Positions 29,535 to 61,048 of a stretch of 61,048 bases of DNA are shown piece by piece. Where the stretch lies: contig JANXYO010000047.1 in NCBI GenBank assembly GCA_025356015.1, positions 1 to 61,048 on the forward strand. The letters run 5' to 3'. Position numbers and translations under genes: made by a program. The notes beneath the pieces were generated by a model. The model worked only from the letters and a program-made list of their open reading frames with translations, searched no databases and was not told the DNA's origin. Every line of letters begins with the position of its first letter. Position 1 is the stretch's first letter. Source of the stretch: Spirochaetaceae bacterium (GTDB lineage: Bacteria > Spirochaetota > Spirochaetia > Treponematales > Rectinemataceae).

Positions 29535-30650
29535 ATGGACTCCCTCAAGAGCCAGAAAAACCTGCCCTTATTCGCGATCGCCCTCATCATGGCGGCCTTT
29601 GCCATGGGCACGGCCTGCGTCAGCCGCCAGCCCATAGTCCTGGGCCTCGCCGGGAGCTTCTCGGGCAGGGACTCGGCGTTGGGCATCTCGGGGCGCAACG
29701 CGGCCGAGCTCTTCGTGCGGCAGCTCAACCAGGCCGGGGGCCTGGGCCACAGGATGGTCGTGCTCCAGACGAGGGACTTCGCGAGCGACGAATCGAAAAC
29801 CGTCGGCGCCGACAGGGAACTCCTCGACCTCGGTGCCGTCGCGATAGTGGGGCATTTCACCAGCGCCTCGGCCGTGGCCGCCCTCGATTTCGCCAACCGG
29901 GAGCGCATCGTCCTCGTGTGCCCCACAGCGAGCGCTGCGAGCCTCGGGGGGAAGAGGGATTTCCTGTTCAGGACCATCATGAGCTCGGTGGGGGATGCCA
30001 TCGCCATCGCAGCCGACTTGGCTGCGACCGGCCGGAAGCGACTCCTCGTCATCGAGGCGAGGGAGAACAAGCCCTACGCCGAGACCTATACCCAGTCCCT
30101 CGCCAAGTCGGTCCAGCTGGTCGACGATATCGGCTTCGATGCCCTGGCCGACATCGATTACGGGCGGATCGCCAGGGCCCGGGCAGACGCGATCCTCATC
30201 ATCGCCAACCCCATCGACACGGGCAGCATCGCCCAGGAACTCAGGCTCCACAAGGTAGCCGAGCCCCTGTACCTGAGCGGCTTCGCGACTACCAACAGCG
30301 CCGACCTCCTGGCCAGCGGAGGAGAGGCACTGGAGGGCGCCTGGTTCGTCCACCAGATGGTCGAGTCCCAGCCTGCCCTCGGCCCCCTGATCGAGAGCTA
30401 TCGATCGGTCTATGGGGTGGCCCCGGATTCGGCGGCGATAGAGACCTGGGACGCGATGTGCCTCGTCAAGATCGTCCTCGAGGCCGGAGGCCTGGACAGG
30501 AGGAGCTTCTACGAGCGCATCTGCAAGGTCCGCAGCTTCCAGGGCTCGGCCGACCTGATCTCCCTGGACGATTTCGGTGACGCGACGCGACCCCTCTACA
30601 TCTTCCAGATACGGGATGGGAAGATCCAGTTCTCGGGTCGGACCGGATGA
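29535..30650 (+). CDS. periplasmic ligand-binding lipoprotein (Leu/Ile/Val-binding type)
   Basis: A 371-residue protein with a lipobox ending GTAC (Cys28) and a type 1 periplasmic-binding fold of the branched-chain amino-acid class (IVLGLAGSFSGRDSALGI, AVAIVGHFTSASAVAALDFA, LSGFATTNSADLL). No ABC permease or ATPase adjoins it. Instead its stop overlaps the start of a membrane histidine kinase (ATGA), so it probably delivers ligand to that sensor rather than to a transporter, as LuxP does for LuxQ. That role is inferred from the coupling. Confidence 0.88.
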   Translation: MDSLKSQKNLPLFAIALIMAAFAMGTACVSRQPIVLGLAGSFSGRDSALGISGRNAAELFVRQLNQAGGLGHRMVVLQTRDFASDESKTVGADRELLDLGAVAIVGHFTSASAVAALDFANRERIVLVCPTASAASLGGKRDFLFRTIMSSVGDAIAIAADLAATGRKRLLVIEARENKPYAETYTQSLAKSVQLVDDIGFDALADIDYGRIARARADAILIIANPIDTGSIAQELRLHKVAEPLYLSGFATTNSADLLASGGEALEGAWFVHQMVESQPALGPLIESYRSVYGVAPDSAAIETWDAMCLVKIVLEAGGLDRRSFYERICKVRSFQGSADLISLDDFGDATRPLYIFQIRDGKIQFSGRTG

Positions 30651-36125: not shown

Positions 36126-36153
36126 TTGACCCCGCGCCATTTCGCTATAGAAT
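36126..36153 (+). promoter_or_regulatory. promoter of the caspase-like gene
   Basis: TTGACC (36126-36131), 16 bp, TAGAAT (36148-36153). Transcription should start near 36160, which excludes the ATG at 36152 as a start codon. Confidence 0.5.
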
Positions 36154-36178
36154 GCGCACCGAGGCTAGGTCAGCGGAG

Positions 36179-37431
36179 GTGGTAAAAATCAAATCAAAAA
36201 CGGCCCTGCTATCCATCGCGCTCACGGCCGGCCTCTGCCTCCTGCGCGCTCAGCCTGCGGCACCGCAGGACCGCGGTCTGAGCGTGGTGGCGCGCAAGGT
36301 CACCGGCCAGCCTGATTTCGATGTCGGCAAGCAATACGCCGTCGTCATTGGCATCGACAGGTACCAGGAGTGGCCCGGGCTCCGAAGCGCCGTCGCCGAG
36401 GCGAAGAGCATCAGGCGAATCCTGGCCGATCGGTACTACATCGATGAATTCTTCGAGCTCTATGACAGGGACGCGAGCGCAGCCAATATCAGGAGGCTCT
36501 TCGTCGAGACCCTTCCCAGGAAGCTGGGGGTCCACGATTCCCTTCTCGTGTTCTACGCAGGGCATGGACAGCTCGACGCCTCGAAGACCGGTTTCTGGAT
36601 CGCCTGCGACGGCTCGAAGGACGCCTTCAGCCAATCGGGCTGGATCCCAACGCCCAGCTTCGCAACATGCTCGCCCAGCTCAAGGCCCAGCGCATACTCG
36701 TCCTCGCCGACGCCTGTTTCGCTGGCGACTTCCTCAACGTCAGCCGCGGCGCCCAGCCCACAGTGGACTCGGCCTATTCCCGTCGGGCCCTCCAGCTCAC
36801 CGCCCGGCAGGTCCTGAGCTGGGGCGCCTCCGAGACCGTGCCCGACAAGAGTGAGTTCGGCCGCCAGCTCATCTCGCTGCTCGAGCGCAACACCGAGGCC
36901 CTCCTCGACCCCATCGGGATGTACGACCGCATACGCCTCGGCGTCACCCAGACCCAGCCCCTCCTGGGCAGCCTGCCAGGCAACGAGCAGGGCGCGAGCT
37001 TTGTCCTCTTCCTCAAGCCGAGCGCCACCTCGTCTGCAGGGGCCGCGGGGCCCGCAGCCCCTGCCGCGCCTCCCGCCGCTCCGGCCCCCATCGCCGCGCC
37101 GACCATGACGGTGATCCGCTCCTACGGCAGCCTCCTCGTGTCCTCGGCCTCACTGGGTTCGCTCTTCCTTGACGGCAAGGCGATGGGTGAGCTGCCGGCC
37201 GGGGCCGAAGCGCGGCTCGACAACATCGAGGTCGGCGAGAGGACCCTCGAGATCCGCTATGCCAACGGCGAAAACGACCAGCTCAACGCCGTGCTCGATG
37301 AGAAGGTCTGCACCGCGATCTGGGCGGGCCTGCGGGACATCGGCCTTGGGACCCGGAGCCCCGAGGAGGTCGCCGCCGCGGTGCAGACTGCCTTCGACAA
37401 GGGGAAGGCGGGAAATTGGGCCCGGCCCTGA
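36179..37431 (+). pseudogene. exported caspase-like (peptidase C14) protein, frameshifted
   Basis: The first frame encodes a signal peptide (LLSIALTAGLCLLRAQ), a caspase p20 start (YAVVIGIDRYQEWPGLRSAV) and the catalytic His (LLVFYAGHGQLDAS). Near 36646-36649 it leaves the family: after SQSGWIP the protein continues in the -1 frame as NAQLRNMLAQLKAQRI, then LVLADACFAGDFL with the catalytic Cys, and GSFVLFLKP-like p20 end. A C-terminal Ala/Pro linker and a PEGA-like domain (GSLFLDGKAMGELPAGAEA) follow, ending at 37431. One missing base explains the break. The start is uncertain: GTG 36179 is used because the promoter excludes ATG 36152. Intact, it would be a secreted cysteine protease of the metacaspase/caspase type. 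Confidence 0.8.
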
Positions 37432-46866: not shown

Positions 46867-47178
46867 TCACTCCTTGCGTGGCTTGTGTGCCTTGTCTGTG
46901 ATTGCCCCCCGGGGGCAGGCCGAGGGGGCTTCGAGGCCATAGCGGGCGCAGAGCTTCTCCACCACGTCGAAGACGCAGTGTTCCGCGTCGAGCAGGGCGA
47001 CGAGGAGGGCTTCCTCGATGCCGCAGAGCCGCGAGAGCTCGGCAGTGGCCAGTCCCTCCGCGTGGACCCGGGCGACGAGCTCCATGGTGGCCGGGCAGGC
47101 TTCGCACCAAGATTGGTAGCCATCTGCGAAATCCTTCCGCTCGAGCTTGCCCTGGAGCTCTTCCCTAAAGCTGGCCAT
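46867..47178 (-). CDS. HigA-like antitoxin (helix-turn-helix)
   Basis: A 103-residue protein opening MASFREELQGKLERKDFADG, the usual start of HigA/XRE antitoxins paired with Gp49-like toxins. The helix-turn-helix is VARVHAEGLATAELSRLCGI and EEALLVALLDAEHCVFDVVE. Four Cys residues (SWCEACP, RLCG, KLCARYG) could bind metal, which is unusual for the family. It overlaps the toxin gene by 14 bp, toxin first, as in HigBA. It would neutralise the toxin and repress the operon. Confidence 0.72.
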   Translation of the reverse strand: MASFREELQGKLERKDFADGYQSWCEACPATMELVARVHAEGLATAELSRLCGIEEALLVALLDAEHCVFDVVEKLCARYGLEAPSACPRGAITDKAHKPRKE

Positions 47179-47593
47179 CGGCGATCACCTCCACCTGCTT
47201 CCGGTCGATCCGTCTGAGGAAGTCCTCGCGGTAGTGGCGCGTCGCCTCGATAAAGGCCTCGGGAACGCGGTCTGTGTGCTTGCGCAGGACCGAATAGAAG
47301 ACGATGTAGCGCTCGTAGCAGAAGAAGTACAGCATGCGGATCTGCTCGCCCGATAGCTTCACGCGCAGCTCGTGGACCCCATCCCTTAGTATGTCGGAAT
47401 AGGGGCGGGGCATCCCTGGCCCCATCTCCTCGAGGAGTTCCAGGATATGGAAGAGCTTGACCTGGTGAGGGACGCTGCAGCCCTCGATAAAGGACGAGAC
47501 GGGGCAATCCCTCGCGTGGGCATCGCAAAAGAGGACTGCCCAGCGCCTTCCTCCGCTTCCCTGGACCCGTTGTTCGGCCATGGCGAGGACCAT
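47165..47593 (-). CDS. HigB/Gp49-like toxin
   Basis: About 142 residues. WAVLFCDAHARDCPVSSFIE, VKLFHILELLEEMGPGMPRP, LRDGVHELRVKLSGEQIRML and YFFCYERYIVFYSVLRKHTD give the RelE/HigB fold with the Gp49 signature. These toxins cut mRNA on the ribosome. The start is uncertain: ATG 47593 or ATG 47581; neither has a clear Shine-Dalgarno sequence. The N-terminal 15-20 residues are longer than in most members. Confidence 0.8.
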   Translation of the reverse strand: MVLAMAEQRVQGSGGRRWAVLFCDAHARDCPVSSFIEGCSVPHQVKLFHILELLEEMGPGMPRPYSDILRDGVHELRVKLSGEQIRMLYFFCYERYIVFYSVLRKHTDRVPEAFIEATRHYREDFLRRIDRKQVEVIADGQL

Positions 47594-47653
47594 TGCATCC
47601 AAGACAGGGACTTGTCAACGCTCCCGAGGCTGACTTGATACGTCAATGTGCGC

Positions 47654-47691: not shown

Positions 47692-49353
47692 ATGAGCATA
47701 CGTGTCAAAATCATCTTCGTCATACTTCCGCTCATCATGGTCGCCGTCGTCCTCGCCGGCATGAGTTCCTATTTTGTCGCGGCCTCGGCCGTGACCAGGG
47801 TGGCCATGGACTTCCTCGCCTTCAAGGCTTCGGAGCTCGAGAAGTACGCGAACGGACAGTGGAACCTCCTCGTCGACAATGGCCTCGTGGGCCGCTCCGA
47901 CATGGAATCGGCGGCCAAGGCGGCTGTCGAGTCCTTCGCCCGCTCGGTCCTGCGCAGCGACACCGAGACGATCATCGCCGTCGATCCCGCGGGCAGGGCC
48001 GCGATGCGTGCGGGGCCTGCCGCCCCCCTCCCGGGCGAGGAAGCTGCCCTCTCCATCTTGGCGGGGGCGGGTGACCGCGGCTTCGGCACAATTAGGATGG
48101 GCTCAGGCGACAGGGTGGCCTTCTACTTCCCTTTCCGCCCCTTCAACTGGCTGATCCTGGTCACCGAGGATAGGGGGGCCTTCTACGGGGCCGTCGAGTC
48201 CATCGCCAGGACCTCGATAGCGATCCTGGCCCTGTCGATGCTTGTCTCGGTCTTCCTGGTCCTCCTCATGGCCCGTTTCATAACCAGGCCACTCGAGGTC
48301 CTGTCCAAGGCCATGCAGAAGATCATCGACGAGAACGACCTCGAGCAACGCGTTCCCGTCGAGTACAAGGACGAGATCGGCCAGCTCTCCCACACCTTCA
48401 ACCTCATGCTCGAGGAGCTGGGCAAGGCCTATAAGCAGATCAAGCTCTTCGCCTACGGCCAGGCCGTGGCCCAGACCAAGGAACGCAAGATCAAGCTGAT
48501 CTTCGAGAAGTACGTGCCCAAGGACGTCATCGACCTTGTGTACGGCAATCCCGAGGACATGCTCGTCGGCGACACGAGGATCCTCGCCGTCCTCTTCTCG
48601 GACATAAGGAGCTTCACGACCATCTCCGAGAAGATGACCCCCAACGACCTCGTCGACACCCTGAACAAGTATTTCTCCTACATGGTGGAAGTCATCATGC
48701 AGGATCACGGCGGCATGGTCGATAAGTACATAGGCGACGCCATCATGGCCTACTGGGGCACTCCCAAGAAACGGGACGACGACGCCTTGCAGTCGGTTCT
48801 GGCCGGCCTTGACATGCTCACGGCCCTGGACAGGTTCAACGAGTGGCAGAAGGAGCGTGGCATGGCTCCCTGGGCCATCGGCATCGGCATCAACTACGGC
48901 GGCCTGACCGTCGGCAACATAGGCAGCGCGCGCAAGATGAACTACACGGTCATCGGTGACATGGTCAACCTCGCCTCACGTCTGGAGGGCGCAACCAAGC
49001 GCTACCACCAGCCCATCATCATCTCCGAGAGCGTCCAGAGAGGGGTGAAGGACAGCCTGCGCTGCAGACACATCGACACCGTCGCCGTCAAGGGCAAGAC
49101 CACGGGAGTGCGGATCTACACGACCCGCAAGACCCTCACGAGCGAGGAGACGCGGACCTGGGACCTCCACGACCAGGCCCTCGAGCTCTACTACTCGAGG
49201 AAGTTCAAGGACGCCGAGGCGGCCTTCAGGGACATCCTAAAAGACAGCCCCGACGACTATCCCGCGGAGATCTTCAAGGAGAGGGCGCTCGCCTTCGCCA
49301 AGAACCCTCCTCCCGCCTCCTGGGATGGCGTGGAAGTCCTCACCGAGAAGTAA
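47692..49353 (+). CDS. membrane class III adenylate/guanylate cyclase
   Basis: A 553-residue protein: TM1 (about 5-30), a 140-residue extracytoplasmic sensor, TM2 (about 175-200), HAMP (FITRPLEVLSKAMQKIIDEN), a linker helix, and a class III cyclase domain (about 290-480). Metal Asp residues are in VLFSDIRSFTTISEKM and MVDKYIGDAIMAYWG; the transition-state part is MNYTVIGDMVNLASRLEG. The Lys of DKYIGD and the Asp of VIGD support ATP as substrate. The last 50 residues contain a TPR-like helix pair. It is first of a five-gene coupled operon with a stop/start overlap (TAATG) to the next gene, so cAMP may report a signal sensed by the downstream envelope proteins. Confidence 0.92.
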   Translation: MSIRVKIIFVILPLIMVAVVLAGMSSYFVAASAVTRVAMDFLAFKASELEKYANGQWNLLVDNGLVGRSDMESAAKAAVESFARSVLRSDTETIIAVDPAGRAAMRAGPAAPLPGEEAALSILAGAGDRGFGTIRMGSGDRVAFYFPFRPFNWLILVTEDRGAFYGAVESIARTSIAILALSMLVSVFLVLLMARFITRPLEVLSKAMQKIIDENDLEQRVPVEYKDEIGQLSHTFNLMLEELGKAYKQIKLFAYGQAVAQTKERKIKLIFEKYVPKDVIDLVYGNPEDMLVGDTRILAVLFSDIRSFTTISEKMTPNDLVDTLNKYFSYMVEVIMQDHGGMVDKYIGDAIMAYWGTPKKRDDDALQSVLAGLDMLTALDRFNEWQKERGMAPWAIGIGINYGGLTVGNIGSARKMNYTVIGDMVNLASRLEGATKRYHQPIIISESVQRGVKDSLRCRHIDTVAVKGKTTGVRIYTTRKTLTSEETRTWDLHDQALELYYSRKFKDAEAAFRDILKDSPDDYPAEIFKERALAFAKNPPPASWDGVEVLTEK

Positions 49354-50654
49354 TGGCGATACCTACTCATATCCGCAGGATAGGACTCCTTCCCCTGCTC
49401 CTCGCCCAGCTTCTCATGCTCGGCAGCCTGTCGGCCCAGGACCAGGTCCCCTCGGCGGCGCCCGACCAGGTCCCCGCCGCGGCCGCCGGGACAGGTCCCC
49501 AAAAGGCCCCCGGATCGGTCCGCCTCTTCCCCGCCATTGTCTCGGCCGACGATCCCAGCCAGGCCGATGACGCCGCGACCTACGCTGCTTCCCTGCGCTC
49601 CGGCCTCGATCAGAGCCTCAAGGCCGCAGGCTATCAGGTGGCCATGGCCGACGCTGCCCTCACCCCCGACCTGAGCGAACCCGCCCAGGCGGCCGACCTC
49701 GCCCACACAGCGGGCAATGACTGGGCCGCAGTCTGCGCCCTCTCGCTCTCCGAGGGCCGCCTGAGCTACCGCGTCGCGATCTACGATTCGGCCGACGGCA
49801 GCCTCGCCGCCGGCGACTCCTTCTCTGTCCTCTCGGGACTCGGTGCCCTGCGGACCATGGGCGACTCGGCGGCGGCGGCTGTCGGCCGGCTCGGAGACTA
49901 CCGCGCCGGCCACGCCGGGACGGTGCGCACGGCGGTGAGCTACCGCATCGCCGTGAGCTGCCCCTCCGAGGGAGCGACGGTGCGCATCGAGTCCCCCGGC
50001 CTCAAGTCGGGGGCGCCGACCGGAAAGATCAAGAACGGCAAGGTCCTCCTGCCCTACTTTCCCTTCCTCCAGGGCTCGACCCTCGTCGTTAGCGCCACCA
50101 CCAAGCTGCTCCAGAGGATGAGCACCACCGTCACCCTCGAAACCCAGGCTCCCCTCATCGAGCTCATGCCCCGGAAGCCCCGTTTTGACATCCTTGTCGG
50201 GACGGGGACTGGCCGGCTCCTGGGCGCGGGTGCCGAGCTACGCGCCTACATCGAGCCGGACTGGAGCTTCCTCTTCCTGGAGGACAGGCTCTATTCGGGT
50301 TTTGACTTTCTGCCCGGCTCCTCCCCGGTGATCCACGAGGAATCATGGAACGGCCTTGGCTGGTACCTCTTCTTCCCGCCCGAGTCCCGTTTCAGGATGG
50401 GCTTCAGCCTTGGTGTGGGCTTCCTGTTCAGCCTCACCACGGCAGCCAGTCCCTCGAAACAGCTCTTCTTCGATTTCGCCCTCCTGCCTGTCAACCTCTT
50501 TGGGGAATACAGCCTCGGCAAGGACATGGCCGCGTGGATGTCTCTAAGGTCGGCCTTCTCGGTGGGGACCGAGGGCTCCGGCCTCCTGGCCAGGGGCTGG
50601 ATGGGCAATGGCACGCCCGCCATCTCCCTGGGCTGGCTCTGGAGGCGAAAATGA
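49353..50654 (+). CDS. exported barrel-like protein A of the cyclase operon
   Basis: A 433-residue protein with a signal peptide (LLPLLLAQLLMLGSLSAQ). Residues about 50-175 resemble the N-terminal domain of TolB-like or lipoprotein sensors (LFPAIVSADDPSQ, NDWAAVCALSLSEGRLSYRV). Residues about 190-260 form a PEGA-like sheet (SYRIAVSCPSEGATVRIESP). The C-terminal 170 residues alternate polar and aromatic residues (AELRAYIEPDWSFLFLEDRL, GWYLFFPPESRFRMGFSLGV) and end in LGWLWRRK, suggesting an outer-membrane barrel. I recognise no family. It shares this three-part plan with protein B at 51646. Overlaps neighbours on both sides. Confidence 0.72.
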   Translation: MAIPTHIRRIGLLPLLLAQLLMLGSLSAQDQVPSAAPDQVPAAAAGTGPQKAPGSVRLFPAIVSADDPSQADDAATYAASLRSGLDQSLKAAGYQVAMADAALTPDLSEPAQAADLAHTAGNDWAAVCALSLSEGRLSYRVAIYDSADGSLAAGDSFSVLSGLGALRTMGDSAAAAVGRLGDYRAGHAGTVRTAVSYRIAVSCPSEGATVRIESPGLKSGAPTGKIKNGKVLLPYFPFLQGSTLVVSATTKLLQRMSTTVTLETQAPLIELMPRKPRFDILVGTGTGRLLGAGAELRAYIEPDWSFLFLEDRLYSGFDFLPGSSPVIHEESWNGLGWYLFFPPESRFRMGFSLGVGFLFSLTTAASPSKQLFFDFALLPVNLFGEYSLGKDMAAWMSLRSAFSVGTEGSGLLARGWMGNGTPAISLGWLWRRK

Positions 50655-51649
50655 GGGCCATGACCTCCCGTAACGCGCCCTTAAGGCTCGTCCCGCTTGT
50701 CCTCTGCATCGCCTTGGCCTGTCTTGCCACTCTCATCCTCGCCTCCTGCACCTACCTCCTCGACGACCCCTACCCGGCCTACACCCAGAGGATCTCCACC
50801 TGGACCGACATCGATGCCACGGTGAAGCAGGTCTCGGGTGGAGCAAGCCTGCTTTTCATAAACCATCTGGACTACCTGGAATCGGGGAGCTCGAGCGGGA
50901 TATTCCTCCAACTGGCCACCTCGGACGGCGTGGGTCGACTCGTGACCCTGGACGGGGGGGACTTTGGCAGTCCCGTGAGCTATGTGTACGGGATCGACCC
51001 CGTGGGCCTGACGACGGGCCTGAGCTCGGCCGGCCAGTATCGCAGCGGGGCCGTGCTGATGAACCCGGCCAACCGGACAAGCGCTGCCGTCCTTGGTCCG
51101 ATATCCGGCATCCTCCTGAGCGAGGCCGGGGTGAACTACTACGGCACCGTGTCGGGTGCGACCATGAGCGCCGCACGCTACGACTCGGCCTGGGTCAGCC
51201 TCGGAACCGTCTCGGTGCAGATCTCGACCATATACCCGGGTCCCTGGGAGCTTGTCTCCGCGGGACAGGGCGGGGGCTGGTACTCCTTCCTCTTCCGTGA
51301 CTCGAGCAGCAACAGCTATCGCGCTTTCAGGACACCCTCGCTGGCCTCGATGACCTGGACCTCCCTCTTCGACGATCCCGCCGTCCCTGCCAGCTACAGG
51401 ACGCCGCAATTCTCGGCCGACATGAGCTCGGTGGGGATCACTGCCGACGGCCCCGTGATGCGGGGCCATTCCCAGGGGGGGAACGGCGACAAGCTCAGCT
51501 TCCTGCCCTTCGGCTCCTCGTCCTCGAAGGACTACTATCCGCGGAACTCGGGCTCGGTCCAATACTTCTTCGAGGCCTCGGGACAGTACTGGTTCCTCCA
51601 CGAGGCCTCATCCGGCCGTCTGTACAAGCTGAGGACCTGGTGGAAATGA
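50651..51649 (+). CDS. lipoprotein A of the cyclase operon
   Basis: A 332-residue lipoprotein (lipobox ILASC, Cys33). The mature part is rich in Ser, Gly and aromatic residues and looks like a beta-propeller or repeated sheet (SLLFINHLDYLESGSSSGIF, WYSFLFRDSSSNSYRAFRTP, SGQYWFLHEASSGRLYKLRT). No family recognised. GGAGG is 5 bases before the ATG, which overlaps the stop of protein A (ATGA); its own stop overlaps the start of protein B. The fixed order barrel then lipoprotein suggests the two act together at the outer membrane. Confidence 0.72.
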   Translation: MRAMTSRNAPLRLVPLVLCIALACLATLILASCTYLLDDPYPAYTQRISTWTDIDATVKQVSGGASLLFINHLDYLESGSSSGIFLQLATSDGVGRLVTLDGGDFGSPVSYVYGIDPVGLTTGLSSAGQYRSGAVLMNPANRTSAAVLGPISGILLSEAGVNYYGTVSGATMSAARYDSAWVSLGTVSVQISTIYPGPWELVSAGQGGGWYSFLFRDSSSNSYRAFRTPSLASMTWTSLFDDPAVPASYRTPQFSADMSSVGITADGPVMRGHSQGGNGDKLSFLPFGSSSSKDYYPRNSGSVQYFFEASGQYWFLHEASSGRLYKLRTWWK

Positions 51650-52929
51650 CGCGGCATCATGGAGAGCGGCTGGCATTGAGCCTCGCCCTCGTCCTCTGCG
51701 CGGGCCTTGGCCTCTCGGGCCAGGACTCCCCCGCGCCCGCAGCCGGAGGGGATGCGGCAGCTCCCGCGGCCGAGGCCAAGCGTTTCAGGATCATGGTGGA
51801 TTTCGCCGGCCCCGAGGGCCAGGATCCCCTCCCCTATCTCGACTCCCTCGAGGCCAGCCTGATCCAGTCCCCCATGGCCCTCGCCGTCGTGCGTGCACCA
51901 CAGGGAGTCGGAAGCCTCGCGACCAGGGCCGAGAGGAGCGCCTGCGCCCTCGCCATCCAGCTTGGCGTCACGGTCGAGGGAGACCAGGCCCGCATCAAGT
52001 GGACGATCTACGCGCCTCCCGGCAGCGAGGCCGCAGGACGCGGCAGCGTGGCCAAGGACCTGCCCGATCCCCAGGCCTTCTCCACGACCTTCTGGAATGA
52101 AGCCATCGAGGCCCTCGAAGCCGCCTCGGCCGGGATGGAGGAGGCGAGGAAGTTCCTCACCCTCGTGGGCAGGCCGGGAACCCTCGTCTCGGGGATCGGC
52201 GAGGACATCCTCCTGCCGGAGTCAGGGAAGGTCGATGTGCCCCTAGTGATGCCCGCCTACGTTGTCTGGAGCGCCACGGCCCCCGGGGCGCGCAAGGAGG
52301 GCGGGACAAGGATCGTGAAGGAAAGCGGTTCCACCCTGGTGATCCCCTTCAGGCCCGAGCTTCCTCCCTCGAAGCTGTCCATAGACACGGCCTTCTACGG
52401 CTTGGCCTTTCCCGAGCTCGGCCTGCGCTGGGACATTTCGAGGCGTTTCTTCCTCAAGGCGAACCTTGGCCAGTACCTCGCGGGCCTCGCCCTCCAGGGC
52501 CAGCAAGGCTTCCAGAGCTCCAAGACCGCGCCGGCCTCCCTCATTTCCTCCATCGAACTCGTGCAGCCCGGCCTCGGCGGAGGTTTTGTCTTCTCGGCGC
52601 CCACGGCCCCTTTCCGCCTCTATGCAAGCTTCGACCTCTTTGCCCGGATCGCCTTCCCCGAGGGGAAGCAGCTGATGCTCGACCCCGTCGCGCCGATTGG
52701 AAGCCAGCTCGCCATGGGCTTCGACTGGGGGAAAAAGCCGGGTATCCGCCTCTATTTCGAGCTGGGCGCTGCCTTGTATCCCTGGGCCTACCCCGGCCTC
52801 ATGATCGCTTCATGGAGCGGCCAGGGCATGCCTCGCCTCACCGGGGGAGGGGCGGGTCTCTTCAACGGTCACCCGGGCTGGTTCGTCGAGTTCCCCGTAC
52901 CACGGCTCGGTCTGAGGATCCACCTATGA
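51646..52929 (+). CDS. exported barrel-like protein B of the cyclase operon
   Basis: A 427-residue protein with a signal peptide (LALSLALVLCAGLGLSGQ). The plan parallels protein A: an N-terminal soluble domain (about 45-175: FRIMVDFAGPEGQDPLPYLD, ACALAIQLGVTVEGDQARIK), a PEGA-like middle (VDVPLVMPAYVVWSATAPGA) and a C-terminal barrel-like part (LGLRWDISRRFFLKANLGQY, FRLYASFDLFARIAFPEGKQ) ending in PRLGLRIHL. Sequence identity to A is low, so A and B are diverged paralogues at best. ATG 51646 overlaps the upstream stop (ATGA) and is preferred to the GTG at 51640. Confidence 0.72.
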   Translation: MTRHHGERLALSLALVLCAGLGLSGQDSPAPAAGGDAAAPAAEAKRFRIMVDFAGPEGQDPLPYLDSLEASLIQSPMALAVVRAPQGVGSLATRAERSACALAIQLGVTVEGDQARIKWTIYAPPGSEAAGRGSVAKDLPDPQAFSTTFWNEAIEALEAASAGMEEARKFLTLVGRPGTLVSGIGEDILLPESGKVDVPLVMPAYVVWSATAPGARKEGGTRIVKESGSTLVIPFRPELPPSKLSIDTAFYGLAFPELGLRWDISRRFFLKANLGQYLAGLALQGQQGFQSSKTAPASLISSIELVQPGLGGGFVFSAPTAPFRLYASFDLFARIAFPEGKQLMLDPVAPIGSQLAMGFDWGKKPGIRLYFELGAALYPWAYPGLMIASWSGQGMPRLTGGGAGLFNGHPGWFVEFPVPRLGLRIHL

Positions 52930-54056
52930 AAGCTACCCCCCGCCTGAGCAGCCTGGCAGCCCGCCTGGGCAGCATGGCGGCGGCCCTTGCAGCCGGCGCC
53001 CTCCTTGTTTCCTGCTGGGCCCCCTACTACAACCCCGCCGTCTCGCTCTCCGTCCCCATGTACAAGAAGCTCGGCAATCCCATCCTGGCCATCGGCCCGA
53101 TATCCACCAAGAATACCGGCGGCTTCGACACCACGCTCCCCGTCGATTTCATCCCCTCGAGGCCGAACACCCTTCCTCCCGATCCCCTCGACGGCTTCAT
53201 GGTCCAGAGGGTCCCCCAGACCGCGTCCATCAAGATCAGCTTTGTGGAGAACAGCGGCGGCAGCTACCAGCTGGCCCCCAGCAGCCAGACCGTCCTCAAC
53301 CAGCTCGGCGATGGAGCCATCGTGCGCGCGGCGGCCGCCAACGGGACCGAAGCCCAGCTCATCGTGATAGGCGACAGGACGGCCGCCCGCCAGTTCTCCT
53401 TCGATCCAGCCATGCACCAGATCAATGTCGGCCCGACCACGGCCCTCGGCACCGGGACGACGGCGGTCTACGCCCTCGGGGCGAGCCTCCTCATGCCGCC
53501 CTCGACCGACACCGACAGCTACGCGGTGCTCTACACCGACGGGACCAGGAACACCGTCTCTATGGATGGGATCGACCTGAACCTGAACAGCTTCTCGGAC
53601 CAGCTCAACGTGACTGCCCCTCTGGCCCTCGGGGGCCACAGCCTCGCCACGGGAGGAAGGGCCTTCCTCGACATCCAGAACCATAGGTTTTACTATTCAT
53701 CCCCTGCCGGCCCGACCTTGCTCTGGGACACCACCATGTGGCCGGGCACCCATCCTGGGCCCAGCGTCCTGCCCATATCGGAGCTCGTGACCACCTTGCT
53801 TTCGGACGGGACCCTTGTGGCCCAGGGTGACAACTACATAAGCGCCTACCGCAGCGATGGAAGCAAGCTCTTCACCATGCCCGCGGGCTCGGTTCGCCTC
53901 GTCCATGAGATCTACTACCCCGGCCCCAATCCCCTCGCCGGGAACTACCTGATCTTCAGCCAGGTGCTTTCGACGGCCGTCCAGGGATCGGGCAGCGACA
54001 GGGAATACTACGTCAATGTGTGGAGATGTCCGCTGTCAGATTTCAGGGCCTTCTAG
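52926..54056 (+). CDS. lipoprotein B of the cyclase operon
   Basis: A 376-residue lipoprotein (lipobox LLVSC, Cys30). The mature protein has regular Gly/Thr/Ser-rich blades (DTTLPVDFIPSRPNTLPPDP, EAQLIVIGDRTAARQFSFDP, SYAVLYTDGTRNTVSMDGID, RFYYSSPAGPTLLWDTTMWP), suggesting a beta-propeller. No family recognised. It is the last gene of the operon and overlaps protein B by 4 bp. A 12-bp inverted repeat follows 10 bp later. Confidence 0.72.
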   Translation: MKATPRLSSLAARLGSMAAALAAGALLVSCWAPYYNPAVSLSVPMYKKLGNPILAIGPISTKNTGGFDTTLPVDFIPSRPNTLPPDPLDGFMVQRVPQTASIKISFVENSGGSYQLAPSSQTVLNQLGDGAIVRAAAANGTEAQLIVIGDRTAARQFSFDPAMHQINVGPTTALGTGTTAVYALGASLLMPPSTDTDSYAVLYTDGTRNTVSMDGIDLNLNSFSDQLNVTAPLALGGHSLATGGRAFLDIQNHRFYYSSPAGPTLLWDTTMWPGTHPGPSVLPISELVTTLLSDGTLVAQGDNYISAYRSDGSKLFTMPAGSVRLVHEIYYPGPNPLAGNYLIFSQVLSTAVQGSGSDREYYVNVWRCPLSDFRAF

Positions 54057-54119: not shown

Positions 54120-56504
54120 CTATTTCAGGAGGCCACGCAGGGCGTCGATGAAGCCAACCAGGGTCGGATCTCCCGCGTAGTGCTTCGCGTTCGCATCCAG
54201 GGAGTTCTGCCTCTCCTTGCCCGGCTTGGCCTTTGTCGCCTGGATGGCGATGTCGGCGGCCGTCCGGAGGGTCGCCACCGACATCTGCTGCTGCCAGGCG
54301 GTCATCTGCGAGTCCACCAGGCGCTCGAGCTCGGGGAAGACTGTCTTAAACTCCCCGCTTCCGAAGAGGGCGACGAGGCGCTTCTGCCTCTCGATGAGGA
54401 CAGCATCGCCGGTCTTGCCCGCCGTGGCGTTCTCGGTGGCGATGTAGGAAGCATACTGGCTCTTGAGGGCGCCGGTCACGGCCTTGAGCTCGGCAAGAGC
54501 CTTGGCGTCACCGGTGGCCAAGGTCGCGTCCTGGGGACTGATGCTCCCCGCCTGCACACCGGCCTTGGCCGTCGCAGCCTGGGCCGCGACAAGCTGGACC
54601 TGGAGGGCGGCTATCTGGTCCTGGGAGGCCTTGAGCCTGCGCTCCGAGTCGGCAAGCTTTCCCTCGGCGACCGCCTTTCCCTGGTTCGCCGCATCGAGGT
54701 TGGCGCTGAGCTGGCGGTTCTCCTCGCCGAGCTTGACCGCCGTGCCACCGGCATCTGACTTGAGGTCGCCGATGGCCTTCTCGTAGGCCGCGGTGCGGGT
54801 CTCGATGTCCCTGTCCATGGCCTTTCGCGCGCTGTCGATGCCCTTGAGGGCTTCGCCGGTCTGGTCGGCTGAGGGATAGCTGCTAAGGACGCCTACATAG
54901 CCAGTCAAGGCCGAGGCCCATGCGCTCGAGGCGAGGTCCTGCTTGGCCGCGGCCATGGCAGCCCGAGCCGCCCTGGTATCGGCGGCGCGCCTGGCCTTGT
55001 CGGCCTCGAGGGCCCCGGCCTGGGCGAGGCGCGCGAGCATGACGGAACGGTTCGCCTCGTCCATGGGAAGCCAGGAGACCGCCTCCGAATAGCGGGCCGA
55101 GGCCGCGGCCATGTCTCCCGCCTTGAAGGCGAGGTCTGCCGCCGCGAGGGAGGAGTCGAGCTTGGCCTTGCGGGCCTCGTCGTCCTGCTTCGCCTTGGTG
55201 AGGAAGTATTCGTGGGCTGCGAGGATCTCTGGCACCGTCGCAAGGGATTCCTGGTACTTGGCCGCGGCTGTCGAGAGGTCTCCCGCCTTGAGGGCACGGT
55301 CTCCCGCCGCCGAGGCCTCCCTCGCGGCGGCCATGAGCTCGGCCTGGCGGACCAGCTTCGAGCTGTCGACGCTGGCTTTCTCGATCTCGCCCTGGGCGAG
55401 GCTCCCGAGGGCGTCGCCCACGAAGAGGTCGGCCTCGCGCCTGGCCTGGATGGCGGGCACCGAGATGACCGAGGGATCGTTCAGATAGGCGTTCAAGGAG
55501 GACACCGAGGCGAGGGCATCGGTGAAGCGGCGCTCCCGGAGGGCGCTGCGGATCGAGCCATAGAGGCCGAGGATGCGGTCCTCGACGGCCTGGACTCTCG
55601 ACCTCTGGTCCTCGAGCCTCGAGAGCTCGGCCTGGGCAGCCGTGGCGCTGGCCTTGGCTGCCGCGCTTTGGCCCTCGAGCTCCTTGGCCTTGGTGTCGAG
55701 GGAGGCGCGCAGCTGATCCTCGCGTTTGCGGGACTCGTCGAGGAGCTTCTTGCGCTCATCGTTGAGCCCGGAGATGCTCCTCTGGTACTCGTCACGGGCC
55801 TGGGCGAGCTTGGCGTCCTCCGCGGCCTTGTCTGCGGCCGCCTGCTTCTGGAAGGCGGCGAGCTGGGAATTGAACTCGGCCGTCTTCTGGGCCTCGAAGA
55901 CCTTGAGCTTGGCCTGGATCGAGGCCTCTGACAGGCCGAGGTCGGTGAGGCGCTGCCTCTCCTTGTCCAGTTCCAGTTTGAGGGCCGCCCGGAGCTCGGT
56001 CTCGCGGGCTGCGATCCTCTGCTCGATCGTCGCGGCGAGCTCGCTGCGCTGCTTGTCGATGGTGCTCAGGCGGGTCTGGATCTCGGCGATGGCCTTGTCC
56101 TTCTCCTGGAGCTTGGAATCGGAGTCTCGCTTGATCTCCTGGATGAGCTTGCCTTCGGCGCTGGTGACGACCGCGTTGCCCGAGGCGAGGCTCTGGTCCT
56201 GGGCCCTGAACACGAAGGCCAGGACGGCGACAATGCCCGCGGTGAGGACGATGGCGAGGACGTTGACGACCAGGGGGAAGACAAAGCCCTTTCGCAGGGG
56301 AGTGATGACCGTGGATCCCGTGCCCGCGGTCAGGCCGCTCCTCGTGGCAACCTTGTCGATGCTCGCGAGTATCTCGCGGCGTTCTTCGGCGGTGATTCCC
56401 TCCTCCTGCTCCTCGGGAGCCGGAGGGGCGCTTGGCGCGCCCAGCTTGAGGCGTCTTCTGAGTTCGGAAGCCCGTTCGATGAGTCCGGTCCCGCGAAATT
56501 CCAT
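54120..56504 (-). CDS. large coiled-coil/TPR-like single-pass membrane protein
   Basis: A 794-residue protein. An N-terminal cytoplasmic part (residues 1-72, EEQEEGITAEERREILASID) is followed by one TM helix (about 76-100, FPLVVNVLAIVLTAGIVAVL), then about 200 residues of charged coiled coil (ELRAALKLELDKERQRLTDL), helical repeats resembling TPRs (DRALKAGDLSTAAAKYQESL, DLAFKAGDMAAASARYSEAV), and a second coiled coil. It may act as a periplasmic scaffold or spacer. No family recognised; similar Ala-rich coiled-coil membrane proteins occur in treponemes. Start ATG 56504, with GGGA upstream; a longer frame to 56624 reaches into the promoter region of the divergent gene. Confidence 0.78.
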   Translation of the reverse strand: MEFRGTGLIERASELRRRLKLGAPSAPPAPEEQEEGITAEERREILASIDKVATRSGLTAGTGSTVITPLRKGFVFPLVVNVLAIVLTAGIVAVLAFVFRAQDQSLASGNAVVTSAEGKLIQEIKRDSDSKLQEKDKAIAEIQTRLSTIDKQRSELAATIEQRIAARETELRAALKLELDKERQRLTDLGLSEASIQAKLKVFEAQKTAEFNSQLAAFQKQAAADKAAEDAKLAQARDEYQRSISGLNDERKKLLDESRKREDQLRASLDTKAKELEGQSAAAKASATAAQAELSRLEDQRSRVQAVEDRILGLYGSIRSALRERRFTDALASVSSLNAYLNDPSVISVPAIQARREADLFVGDALGSLAQGEIEKASVDSSKLVRQAELMAAAREASAAGDRALKAGDLSTAAAKYQESLATVPEILAAHEYFLTKAKQDDEARKAKLDSSLAAADLAFKAGDMAAASARYSEAVSWLPMDEANRSVMLARLAQAGALEADKARRAADTRAARAAMAAAKQDLASSAWASALTGYVGVLSSYPSADQTGEALKGIDSARKAMDRDIETRTAAYEKAIGDLKSDAGGTAVKLGEENRQLSANLDAANQGKAVAEGKLADSERRLKASQDQIAALQVQLVAAQAATAKAGVQAGSISPQDATLATGDAKALAELKAVTGALKSQYASYIATENATAGKTGDAVLIERQKRLVALFGSGEFKTVFPELERLVDSQMTAWQQQMSVATLRTAADIAIQATKAKPGKERQNSLDANAKHYAGDPTLVGFIDALRGLLK

Positions 56505-56647: not shown

Positions 56648-56690
56648 TAACTAAATATTAATGTGCAATTCTTCCATTCGAGGTGCGGCC

Positions 56691-57938
56691 ATGGAAAGCT
56701 GTCGCCACGGGAGGATTCACGCCGTCCTGGTCGCCTGCCTCATTGGCGCGATCGCCATCCTCTTCGTCACCTGTCCCAATCCTTCCTCGTGGATGAGGGA
56801 CACCTGGAACAATTTTAGCCAGAAAGAGGACATCGTGGATATCGTCCCGGGACAGGTGGCGAACCCGGTCTTCAAGCCCAGCACGGGAAGCTATTCCACG
56901 GACCAGGGCGTGTCAATAAGCTGCGCGACGGCTGGGGCGAAGCTCTACGTCACGACCGACGGCAGCGAGCCCACCGAGGCCTCCCCCCTCTACTTTTCGC
57001 CCATCGCGGTAGCCGGGGACGGGACAGCGAGGACCATCAAGGTCCTCGCCGTCCTGGCCGGCCTCACCGAGGCACGGGGCTCGGCCATCTACACCATTAA
57101 ATACTCCCAGGTCTCCACCCCCCAGTTCTCCCCCCCGGCGGGGGTCTACGGGGCTGATCGGACAATATCCCTGAGCTGCCCCACCCAGGGCGCCACCATT
57201 TATTACAGCTCGGGAAGCAGCCTGGACACGACAGCTGCCCCTACCAGGGCCTCGAAGTCCTACTCGGAGCCCATTGTCTTGTCTGGCGATGGCTCGAACC
57301 TCGCGATCAAGGCTCTCGCGGTAAAGGACGGCCTTGCCGACGCCAGCGCCTCGGCGAGCTTCGGGATCAGCTACCCCAGGGTGACAATTGTCGTGGGCGG
57401 CTCGGGTAGCACCGTCCCGGCCGCTGGCCAGCAGACCAGCTACCCGGAGGGCCTGCCCCTTTTGATCAGCGCGAGCCCGGCAGAGGGCTGGCAGTTCCGA
57501 GGGTGGAAGAGCTCAGGCGGAGCCGGGGTCGACGCGCCTGGGTCCAGGAACGCGAATGCGACCCTTCATGGCACCGGAACCAGCCTCCTGACCGCCAGCT
57601 TCGTGCGGACCTTCAGGGTGACCGCGATCGCGTATGGGGGCCGGATCTGGACAAGCCCCGATTCCGGGGGAACATGGTACACGGGCAACTCCCACGCCAT
57701 GAACTGGACTACCCTGGCCGCGTCGGCAGACGGTACCAGGATCCTGGCCTCGGCCGGGGCCTCGGGCAGCAATTCCTCGATTTATGGCTCAGGCGATGGG
57801 GGCCTCTACTCGGTCAAGGCTGGCCACGGCCAGAGCATCTACCTCTCATACGACGGCGGGGAAAGCTTCGAGCTCCAGACCGGGCCGGGAATCTCGGGTC
57901 TTGCCGACTGGAGGGGGATCAAAATCCAATCCAAATGA
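56691..57938 (+). CDS. chitobiase-C-like repeat lipoprotein 1, shortened propeller
   Basis: A 415-residue lipoprotein (lipobox LFVTC, Cys28). Two chitobiase/beta-hexosaminidase C-terminal-type repeats follow (about 50-130: GAKLYVTTDGSEPTEASPLY; 135-215: GATIYYSSGSSLDTTAAPTR), then a bacterial-repeat module (ASPAEGWQFRGWKSSGG, about 225-295) and the start of a propeller (AYGGRIWTSPDSGGTWYTGN). Only about one and a half blades remain before the end (GGESFELQTGPGISGLADWR). The next gene has the same start and end with some 290 more residues, so an internal deletion is likely. ATG 56691 has GAGGTG upstream and is preferred to ATG 56661. Confidence 0.8.
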   Translation: MESCRHGRIHAVLVACLIGAIAILFVTCPNPSSWMRDTWNNFSQKEDIVDIVPGQVANPVFKPSTGSYSTDQGVSISCATAGAKLYVTTDGSEPTEASPLYFSPIAVAGDGTARTIKVLAVLAGLTEARGSAIYTIKYSQVSTPQFSPPAGVYGADRTISLSCPTQGATIYYSSGSSLDTTAAPTRASKSYSEPIVLSGDGSNLAIKALAVKDGLADASASASFGISYPRVTIVVGGSGSTVPAAGQQTSYPEGLPLLISASPAEGWQFRGWKSSGGAGVDAPGSRNANATLHGTGTSLLTASFVRTFRVTAIAYGGRIWTSPDSGGTWYTGNSHAMNWTTLAASADGTRILASAGASGSNSSIYGSGDGGLYSVKAGHGQSIYLSYDGGESFELQTGPGISGLADWRGIKIQSK

Positions 57939-57949
57939 ATCCGTCAGGA

Positions 57950-57977
57950 TTGACAAGCTGTCCGAAATAGTCATACT
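57950..57977 (+). promoter_or_regulatory. promoter of repeat lipoprotein 2
   Basis: TTGACA (57950-57955), 16 bp, CATACT (57972-57977), 45 nt before the start codon. Confidence 0.5.
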
Positions 57978-58021
57978 TATTGGCAAACCAAAAAAGTCAA
58001 TCACTTCCACCCGGAGGGGTC

Positions 58022-60139
58022 ATGGGAACCGTTCAACGCGGGAAGACCCGCGCTCCACTCTTCGCATGCCTCCTTTTCGGGGCTGTTGTCCTCTTCTTTG
58101 CCGCCTGCACGAACTCCTCTTCCTTCGGGAGCGATCCCTGGTCCAGCCGTGGCCCAAACGCCGGCCCCGTTGATTTCACGGCCCAGCCCCTTGCGACACC
58201 CGTCTTCATTCCGTCTGCGGGTAGCTACTCAGCCGACCAGAGCGTCCAGATCAGCTGCGCGACACCGGGAGCAAACCTCTACTACACTGTCGATGGCAGC
58301 ACACCCACCACGGCCTCGCCCTTGTATTCCGTGCCAATCCCGGTTACCGGGAGCGGAACAAACAAGACCATCAGGGTCCTCGCTGTAAAGACGGGCTCCA
58401 CCGACGCCACGGCCGCGGCGAGCTTCGTCATCAACTATTCCCAAGTCTCGACCCCCCAGTTCTCAACGCCAGGGGGAAGCTATGGGGCCGACCAAGATAT
58501 CGTGCTGAGCTGTTCCACGCCCGGGGCGACCATCTATTACGAAACTGGCAGCAGCCTGGCCCTCACAGCAAATCCAACAACCGCGTCACCGGTCTACTCC
58601 ACGCCAATCCCTGTGCACGGCAATCCCGCCAACGTGGCGATCAAGGTCCTCGCGTGGAAGGCAGGCATGGCCGACGGAATCGCCACTGCGGTCTTCTCCA
58701 TCAACTACCCCATCCTAACCATGGCCATAAGCGGTCCCGGCAGCGGCAGCACCATGCCGACGGTTGGCATGCCGATCGCGATTCCCGCCGGCATTCCCTA
58801 CTTAGTCAACGCGACACCGGCGACAGGCTCCCATATTGATCCCGCCCTGATCTTGACGACCTCGGGCGGGGCCAGCATCAACCTCGCGACCTTCCAGGTG
58901 ACCCTCAGCTCAAGCGGCACGGTGACCGCCCACTTCGCCTTGAACCAGTACACGCTCAGCCCGGCCGTGGCCGGCAGCGGCAGCATGACTCCTGGCGTGG
59001 CGATGTCGGCAGACTACGGGGTGCCGACACTTATCACGGCGACGCCCATCCCCGGCTGGCACTTCACCGGCTGGGCGGGTGTAGGCGGCGCGACAGTGGA
59101 CCTCCCGGCAAGCCCCATAGCCCACGCGACCCTCTGGTCCGACGGGTCCGTGACAGCCAACTTTGCCCTTGACCCGGTCAGGCTCAGCGCCATCGCCTCC
59201 GGAGGCCGGATCTGGTCCTCCTCGGACGGGGGCATCTCCTGGTTCCCGGGGAACTCCGCCACGATGAACTGGTCAACACTCACGAGCTCGGCCGACGGAA
59301 CCAAGGTCGTCGCCTCGGCCGGAGCCTTTGGCGTCGATTCCCTCATCTACCGCTCCGCCGACGGGGGCCTCAACTGGAGCCCCCTCTCGGCCCCCTTGCT
59401 TGCATACCAAGGCCTTGGGTCGAGCGGCGACGGAAGCATCATCGCCGCCTCGGTCTATGACGGTGTCAATGACCTCTACTATTCCACCACCTCAGGGCTC
59501 GGCTGGGGAAGCGCCAGCATCCCCGGTTACCAATGGTGGTCCACTCCCTCTTCGTCCGGCGATGGCCTTCATTGGGTCATGGAGAACGGCGGCGATAGCT
59601 CCGGCAACGTGAAGATATTCACGGGCACTTTCGACGGCGCTGCCTCCTGGAACTGGACCCCCACCCCCTTCACCGCGGGCGGCGGCAGCGACTATCCCTC
59701 GGGCTATTCGGTCTCGAAGGACGGGCAGAAGATCTTCGTGACCTATGCCGGCCACATGCACATCTCGACGGACTTCGGTGCAAGCTGGAATCCCATAAGC
59801 AGCACCTTCACCCAGATAAGCTCCTCATCCATGTCGGGAAACGGCAATACCCTGGCCATCGTCGACCACACGAGCGGCAACAGCAGGCTGTATCTCTCGA
59901 CCGACGGGGGCTCGACCTGGATCCAGAGCAGCACCGGCCTGCCAGCAGTCACAGCCCCGGATAGCTTCAGCGCGCCCTCTATCTCCTACGACGGATCCAG
60001 GATCGCGGTCTACACGGTCCTGGGCGGATCCGGCAATCTGATATACATCTCGACAAACGGCGGCTTGAGCTTTGCCGCGCAAACGGGCCCCGGAGCCAGC
60101 GGCGTGGCCAACTGGCTAGGGATCCACATCTCCCAGTAA
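58022..60139 (+). CDS. chitobiase-C-like repeat lipoprotein 2, full length
   Basis: A 705-residue lipoprotein (lipobox FFAAC, Cys29). Order: two chitobiase-C-type repeats (GANLYYTVDGSTPTTASPLY, GATIYYETGSSLALTANPTT), two bacterial-repeat modules (to about 390, including TATPIPGWHFTGWAGVGGAT), then a long sortilin/BNR-like propeller with Asp-box-like turns (IYRSADGGLNWSPL, LYLSTDGGSTWIQSS, IYISTNGGLSFAAQTG) to the end. Such surface lipoproteins may bind glycans. GGAGGGG precedes the ATG at 58022. The first 50 bp are nearly identical to those of the next gene, a sign of duplication or gene conversion. Confidence 0.85.
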   Translation: MGTVQRGKTRAPLFACLLFGAVVLFFAACTNSSSFGSDPWSSRGPNAGPVDFTAQPLATPVFIPSAGSYSADQSVQISCATPGANLYYTVDGSTPTTASPLYSVPIPVTGSGTNKTIRVLAVKTGSTDATAAASFVINYSQVSTPQFSTPGGSYGADQDIVLSCSTPGATIYYETGSSLALTANPTTASPVYSTPIPVHGNPANVAIKVLAWKAGMADGIATAVFSINYPILTMAISGPGSGSTMPTVGMPIAIPAGIPYLVNATPATGSHIDPALILTTSGGASINLATFQVTLSSSGTVTAHFALNQYTLSPAVAGSGSMTPGVAMSADYGVPTLITATPIPGWHFTGWAGVGGATVDLPASPIAHATLWSDGSVTANFALDPVRLSAIASGGRIWSSSDGGISWFPGNSATMNWSTLTSSADGTKVVASAGAFGVDSLIYRSADGGLNWSPLSAPLLAYQGLGSSGDGSIIAASVYDGVNDLYYSTTSGLGWGSASIPGYQWWSTPSSSGDGLHWVMENGGDSSGNVKIFTGTFDGAASWNWTPTPFTAGGGSDYPSGYSVSKDGQKIFVTYAGHMHISTDFGASWNPISSTFTQISSSSMSGNGNTLAIVDHTSGNSRLYLSTDGGSTWIQSSTGLPAVTAPDSFSAPSISYDGSRIAVYTVLGGSGNLIYISTNGGLSFAAQTGPGASGVANWLGIHISQ

Positions 60140-60150
60140 TTATCGAAGCG

Positions 60151-60178
60151 TTGACTAGCAATACGGCAAAAACATGAT
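60151..60178 (+). promoter_or_regulatory. promoter of repeat lipoprotein 3
   Basis: TTGACT (60151-60156), 16 bp, CATGAT (60173-60178), 44 nt before the start codon; same spacing as upstream of lipoprotein 2. Confidence 0.45.
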
Positions 60179-60221
60179 TGTGCGTAAACCAAGGCCAGAG
60201 ATTTGCCGCACGGAGGAAGAC

Positions 60222-61048
60222 ATGGGATCAGGTCAACGCGGGAGTATCCGCGCTCCACATTTCGCATGCCTTCCTGGCATCCTGGCTTTCATCCTGGCAG
60301 TTTCGGTGGCCGGCTGCTCGAACCCCGCGGGCCTGGTGAAAGACACCTGGACCAACTTCGACCAGAAGCAGAGCCCCGTGCCGATAGTATCGGGAGCGGT
60401 GGCCATCCCCATCTTCACTCCGGCCGCGGGGGTCTTTTCTGTCGACCAGAGCGTATCCATAGGTTGCGCGACATCGGGAACAAGCCTTTACTTTACTGTC
60501 GACGGGAGCACGCCCACGACCGCCTCGAGCCTCTATGCCGGACCCATCCCGGTCGCGGGCAACGGGACGAGCCAGACCATCAGGGTCCTGGCGGTGAAGG
60601 CGGGCTTTCTCCCGGCTTCGGCCTCCTCGGGCTATGACATCAACTACGCCCAGGTGTCGGCGCCGAACTTCTCTCCCGGCGCCGGTTCCTATGGCACCGA
60701 CCAGAACGTCACGATCAGCTGCACCACTGGCGGGGCCGTCATCCACTACACGACCGACGGGACGACTCCCACTGGCGCCTCGGCTGTGTACTCCACGCCC
60801 ATCCCCGTGTCGGGGAACGGCTCAAGCCTGACCATCAAGGCCATGGCCACCAAGTCCATGATGACCGACTCACCGGTCGCCTCGGCCCTTATCACGATCA
60901 GTTACGGCCAGGCCTCATCGCCTAACTTCTCCCCTCCCGGGGGCACATACTTCTCCGTCTTTTTCGTGAGCCTCTCATCGACGGCACCCTCGATCCGATA
61001 CACGACCGACGGAAGCACGCCGAGCTCGACGGTCGGGACCCTGGGCAG
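60222..61048 (+). CDS. chitobiase-C-like repeat lipoprotein 3, 3' end outside window
   Basis: The frame is open to the edge (275 codons). The lipobox is SVAGC (Cys32). The start MGSGQRGSIRAPHFACL parallels MGTVQRGKTRAPLFACL of lipoprotein 2. Three chitobiase-C-type repeats are visible (GTSLYFTVDGSTPTTASSLY, GAVIHYTTDGTTPTGASAVY, and PSIRYTTDGSTPSSTVGTL at the edge), one more than in its neighbours. CGGAGGA precedes the ATG. A propeller probably follows beyond the window. Confidence 0.85.
   Translation, partial: MGSGQRGSIRAPHFACLPGILAFILAVSVAGCSNPAGLVKDTWTNFDQKQSPVPIVSGAVAIPIFTPAAGVFSVDQSVSIGCATSGTSLYFTVDGSTPTTASSLYAGPIPVAGNGTSQTIRVLAVKAGFLPASASSGYDINYAQVSAPNFSPGAGSYGTDQNVTISCTTGGAVIHYTTDGTTPTGASAVYSTPIPVSGNGSSLTIKAMATKSMMTDSPVASALITISYGQASSPNFSPPGGTYFSVFFVSLSSTAPSIRYTTDGSTPSSTVGTLG

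Follow-up and report, generated by a model that had tools for sequence, protein, structure and literature searches.

The question raised by this locus is whether five genes with overlapping ends, headed by a membrane adenylate cyclase, encode an envelope sensor that reports to cAMP, as was suggested by a sequence-only reading of the same DNA. The window, meaning the whole stretch that was analysed, comprises 61,048 nucleotides of a draft Spirochaetaceae genome (assembly GCA_025356015.1, contig JANXYO010000047.1), and the five genes lie on its forward strand at 47692-54056, in the order CYC (class III adenylate cyclase with a HAMP domain), P2, P3, P4 and P5.

The overlaps claimed for the four junctions were all borne out in the sequence: TAATG between CYC and P2 (49351-49355, with the stop TAA at 49351-49353 and the ATG of P2 at 49353), and ATGA between P2 and P3 (50651-50654), P3 and P4 (51646-51649) and P4 and P5 (52926-52929). 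In P4, an in-frame GTG at 51640 is a possible alternative start, the coupled start being the ATG at 51646. Over 79 distinct loci carrying a cyclase orthologue, the gap was at most 3 nt at 105 of the 113 consecutive-gene junctions of the block, and exactly -4 at 70 of them, in a count that took, of the possible start codons, the one closest to the stop before it and thereby favoured short gaps; junction overlap in CYC-P2-P3-P4-P5 operons far exceeds chance. The further claim that the five proteins are made in fixed proportion goes too far, because translational coupling by overlap does not set equal stoichiometry. Divergent from the operon, on the reverse strand (47165-47602), lies a small Gp49/HigB-like gene (PF05973), possibly forming a toxin-antitoxin pair with the short gene beside it. 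Elsewhere on the forward strand, two overlapping frames (36152-37431), the second with the caspase-like motif LADACFAGDF, may be a single peptidase C14 gene interrupted by a frameshift.

CYC (47692-49353, forward strand, 553 aa) has hydrophobic transmembrane segments at residues 7-25 and 176-194 by hydropathy, with an extracytoplasmic part at about 26-175, a HAMP domain at residues 192-243 (PF00672, E 4e-14), a class III catalytic domain at residues 298-471 (PF00211, E 1e-25, 90.9 bits against a curated cut-off of 21.9) and a weakly TPR-like tail. Six residues are invariant in 16 orthologues, which we take to be the metal-binding aspartate pair (D304 and D349), the adenine-selecting residues (K345 and T419) and the transition-state residues (N426 and R430). 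In this enzyme family, these six make up the full adenylate cyclase active site, and cAMP synthesis is predicted. The catalytic domain is close to CyaB (PDB 3r5g; E 7.7e-33 to the CyaB chain) and to 2w01. Catalytic domain, active-site residues and HAMP relay are common to CYC and the HAMP class III membrane adenylate cyclases; unlike the known ones, CYC has its own conserved extracytoplasmic region and shares its operon with an outer-membrane barrel/lipoprotein block, none being described for them. The extracytoplasmic region is Cache-like by length only, no Cache family match at a significant level being found among 16 members, one of which matches dCache_1 with an E of 0.014. The genome of the window (G000, ~4.2 Mb) is rich in cAMP signalling: its 4.17 Mb draft contains 20 class III cyclase domains and 26 cNMP-binding domain matches. 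The latter indicate that cAMP receivers are present; with so many cyclase domains, cAMP may therefore not be specific to input from P2-P5.

P2 (49353-50654, forward strand, 433 aa) begins with a hydrophobic export signal and was modelled with AlphaFold2 from 38 sequences (pLDDT 85.5, pTM 0.55), the low pTM meaning that the mutual placement of its domains is not fixed. Residues 52-185 (49506-49907) form a TolB-N-like domain in the model (Z 12.4 to the TolB N-domain, 11.6 to FlgT and 10.7 to a flagellar ring chain), and residues 274-433 (50172-50651) a predicted 8-stranded barrel with strands between 278 and 432 (Z 17.6 to OprF, rmsd 2.1 over 133 residues; Z 17.1 to OmpA). P2 is thus strongly predicted, on the basis of the model, to be an exported protein with an OmpA-type outer-membrane barrel of eight transmembrane-type strands. 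Between the two domains, at about residues 195-270, the model has a small sheet that can be called PEGA-like by strand pattern only, since the Pfam PEGA model matches none of 14 P2 and 15 P4 members; nor does any Pfam barrel or OmpA family match any of them. P4 (51646-52929, forward strand) is an exported paralogue whose barrel is predicted by homology: hhalign aligns P2 and P4 over 316 columns, most of their length (probability 98.1, E 1.3e-13). In a joint tree the two families form separate clades, each with 100/100 support and with similar groupings inside, from which it follows that P2 and P4 are ancient paralogues, duplicated before the sampled radiation began, and that both copies were kept. 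The plan of soluble domain, small sheet and barrel attributed to two exported proteins is therefore reproduced by the P2 model and extends to P4 through homology; the barrel whose absence from predictions was to count against the sequence-only reading is predicted in P2. No Pfam or NCBIfam family matches P2, P3, P4 or P5, or the relatives of P2 and P4, and a PDB sequence search with the P2, P3 and P5 profiles gave no significant match.

Two propeller-like lipoproteins had also been claimed; a lipobox is present in both P3 and P5, and a modelled propeller in P3, one of the two. P3 (50651-51649, forward strand, 332 aa) has a lipobox cysteine, Cys33 (LASC), which is invariant in 27 sequences together with W330-W331, and its AlphaFold2 model, built from 27 sequences (pLDDT 86.2, pTM 0.82), has a propeller at residues 43-332. 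Its best fold match reaches Z 13.6; propellers of the NHL, Pizza, lectin and TolB kinds score lower (TolB Z 11.5), and P3 is strongly predicted, by lipobox and model together, to be a beta-propeller lipoprotein. In P5 (52926-54056, forward strand, 376 aa), the lipobox cysteine, Cys30 (VSCW), is nearly invariant in 25 relatives. The only PDB sequence match of the P5 profile is a propeller-type lactonase (E 0.16), and two profile comparisons of P3 with P5 aligned nothing beyond the signal peptide; the P5 fold is probably similar to the P3 propeller.

Conservation of the operon was surveyed with several queries. A single-sequence scan of genome contigs with P2 alone found no relatives, because P2 has diverged too far for patterns drawn from one sequence; P2 is present in 16 of 59 near relatives, and a profile search of a phylum-wide sample of 345 genomes found P2 in 20 and P4 in 19. 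With the cyclase N-terminal region, a query independent of P2-P5, 54 named loci were obtained, and its search over the phylum sample gave 58 of the 345 genomes, the weakest six of which are probably not orthologues. In total, 79 distinct cyclase-orthologue loci were read, 63 of them with at least 2 kb downstream; the block lies directly behind the cyclase in 31 of these 63, and the cyclase occurs without P2-P5 in 32. The full cyclase-P2-P3-P4-P5 order, for which a survey of homologous operons had been proposed, recurs in about 22 of the 79 loci and in several families of the class Spirochaetia (20 by strict count, plus L039 and L044, judged by eye, with a split frame in P5 and P2, respectively), in counts limited by split frames and contig ends, most relatives being MAGs. 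The operon is real and conserved among many uncultured spirochaetes. Seen from the side of P2, a cyclase orthologue is encoded in 19 of the 20 P2 genomes and P2 stands directly behind it in 17, which is contrary to the prediction that, were the sequence-only reading wrong, homologues of the envelope genes would occur without the cyclase in most genomes. Three genomes depart from this arrangement: in G049, P2-P4 are at another place than the cyclase (L042/L125); in G189, P2-P3-P4-P5 adjoin the gene DN described below, ~90 kb away from the cyclase orthologue (L065/L129); and in G051 a P2-like block (L066) was found and a cyclase orthologue was not.

Variants of the block also occur. A clade of "Treponema" MAGs has CYC-P2-P4, both lipoproteins being absent (L060, L061, L089, L098, L101 and L113), whereas L087 lacks P3 alone and L030 lacks P5 alone; that the barrels stay without lipoproteins in one clade argues against strict barrel-lipoprotein pairs. 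In G146, one contig (L058, 12283-13242) ends in P5 and another (L059, 5562-10437) ends with a P5 fragment and then P2-P5; the block is apparently duplicated in tandem there and divided over two contig ends.

A sixth gene, missed in the sequence-only reading, is a more constant partner of the cyclase than P2-P5. This gene, DN (54120-56504, reverse strand), is convergent to the operon and has no Pfam family; it encodes one transmembrane segment (about residues 78-96) followed by a long region judged by eye to be coiled-coil-like, and a transmembrane segment lies within residues 40-119 in all 39 members read. Its product is predicted from these features to be an inner-membrane-anchored, periplasmic coiled-coil protein. 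DN is found within 5 kb of 40 of the 79 cyclase loci and adjoins the operon in most complete loci; within the same class it also adjoins cyclases without P2-P5 (e.g. L080, L083, L084, L086, L116, L120, L123 and L126), as it does in other classes of Spirochaetota, where the two genes can share an operon (L130, L136). Because DN adjoins the cyclase even without P2-P5, the oldest unit was probably CYC with DN, P2-P5 being an extension; likewise, the frequent occurrence of the cyclase without P2-P5 makes the block look like a later addition behind an older, more widespread cyclase. On a deep branch without recognisable P2-P5, an exported protein of 379 aa and a lipoprotein of 374 aa stand beside DN and the cyclase (L120, 4257-6508), and may be a barrel/lipoprotein pair that has diverged very far. 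A PEGA-looking exported protein directly precedes DN beside the cyclase in another class of the phylum (L131, 900-2210). In the window, three adjoining forward-strand genes beyond DN (56661-61046) are lipoprotein-like with CHB_HEX_C_1/Fn3-associated repeats, one having BNR/sortilin-type propeller repeats, and look like tandem duplicates.

The favoured reading of these genes is an envelope-spanning sensory operon, in which an outer-membrane module, P2-P5, was attached to an older cyclase/DN pair; we hold it tentatively, its truth seeming only slightly less probable than its failure. Its core would be an inner-membrane cyclase that senses through its extracytoplasmic region and relays through HAMP, partnered with the inner-membrane-anchored periplasmic coiled-coil protein DN, to which, in the class Spirochaetia, the products of the genes added behind the cyclase gene would contribute two OmpA-type barrels with periplasmic TolB-N-like domains (P2, P4) and two lipoproteins (P3, P5). 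As to physical assembly, stimulus, direction of signalling and signal transfer to cAMP, we infer that barrels and lipoproteins would assemble at the outer membrane and sense either the condition of that membrane or a ligand from outside, and that their TolB-N-like and PEGA-like parts would contact the extracytoplasmic region of the cyclase, DN perhaps bridging the periplasm. Cyclase activity would be set by this contact, and cAMP would then act through some of the cNMP-binding proteins of the genome. Such reporting of outer-membrane state to cAMP is plausible.

In favour of a sensor are the conserved overlapping order, the adjacency and presence of the cyclase in P2 genomes (17 and 19 of 20) and its intact active site; the predicted barrel and TolB-N folds of P2, the P3 propeller and its invariant lipobox cysteine; the cNMP-binding matches; DN beside cyclases without P2-P5; and the long maintenance of P2 and P4 as separate lineages, with the apparent block duplication in G146. 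Against it are the cyclases without the block in many spirochaetes, the block without adjacent cyclase in G049, G189 and G051, the 20 cyclase domains of the genome and the sensor region without a significant Cache match; moreover, co-transcription proves no signalling.

This last point leads to the chief rival, that P2-P5 are a structural or functional outer-membrane assembly (a tether, an adhesin or an assembly factor), and that the cyclase merely shares their transcript or regulates upstream of them, receiving no signal from them. An older cyclase that often lacks the block agrees with such an assembly, as do G189, where P2-P5 and DN stay together far from the cyclase, and G051; on the other hand, the block is mostly found directly behind, and overlapping with, one cyclase lineage (one of 20 domains) in several families. 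The assembly is a possible explanation, though on the doubtful side. A second rival is that overlaps are ordinary in these compact genomes and the neighbourhood was inherited vertically, without functional link. Other gene pairs of the window do overlap by 4 nt (11023-11026, 13847-13850 and 30647-30650), and the similar groupings in the P2 and P4 subtrees are those expected from vertical inheritance; however, the five-gene order stays while the flanking genes except DN change freely and the proteins diverge to 16-30% identity, and such hitchhiking is unlikely. Finally, an accessory of the periplasmic flagellum or of motility, suggested by the likeness of the P2 domain to FlgT and to a flagellar ring chain and by the spirochaete flagella, which run through the periplasm, is very improbable, as TolB scores as high, the domain type is widespread, a barrel is no flagellar part and no flagellar genes were recognised beside the loci in a partial reading.

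In several spirochaete families, a conserved and overlapping gene order links a single lineage of cyclases with four protein families absent from Pfam and NCBIfam, and, to our knowledge, there are few known ways for a bacterium to read its outer membrane into an internal second messenger. Should this association prove functional, an outer-membrane sensor would have cAMP as its output, the operon would give it defined partners, and outer-membrane barrels would be named in a group where such barrels were hard to find. A stronger form of the sensory reading, a new class of trans-envelope receptor in which paired TolB-N-like OmpA-type barrels and propeller lipoproteins control an inner-membrane cyclase over a coiled-coil bridge, is conceivable but rather less likely than the sensory operon as such; if true, spirochaetes would convert the state of their outer membrane directly into cAMP.

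No system with the composition of cyclase plus P2-P5 was found in Pfam, NCBIfam and the literature searched (a search that took in few subscription papers), and as far as these sources go the operon is undescribed, in agreement with what had been supposed from sequence. The Pycsar anti-phage system was considered and rejected, PycC models matching the catalytic domain of CYC only and no effector model matching P2-P5 or DN. P2 shares its 8-stranded barrel with OmpA and OprF, with no sequence similarity detected; OmpA has its barrel first and then a peptidoglycan-binding domain, whereas the barrel of P2 is C-terminal, behind the TolB-N-like domain, an order seen in none of the structural matches listed for P2. 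Both folds of TolB recur, the N-domain in P2 and the propeller, among many propellers, in P3; TolB, however, is one soluble periplasmic chain, and here the two folds are on separate proteins, one of them barrel-bearing. P2 itself was rejected as a TolB, a sheet and a barrel following its TolB-N-like domain where TolB has its propeller, and the likeness of P2 and P3 to TolB would be one of fold. BamB, which is in the Foldseek list for P3, is likewise a propeller lipoprotein; it has no sequence similarity to P3 and belongs to the BAM complex with BamA, whereas P3 travels with small OmpA-type barrels. In the RcsF-OmpA-IgaA/Rcs system, an outer-membrane lipoprotein and an OmpA-type barrel inform an inner-membrane signalling protein, with a phosphorelay as output; the proposed sensor would work similarly, with a cyclase as output instead. 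With no membership claimed in any of these systems, RcsF-OmpA sensing would be the nearest in its working, and TolB, OmpA and BamB would be the nearest in fold.
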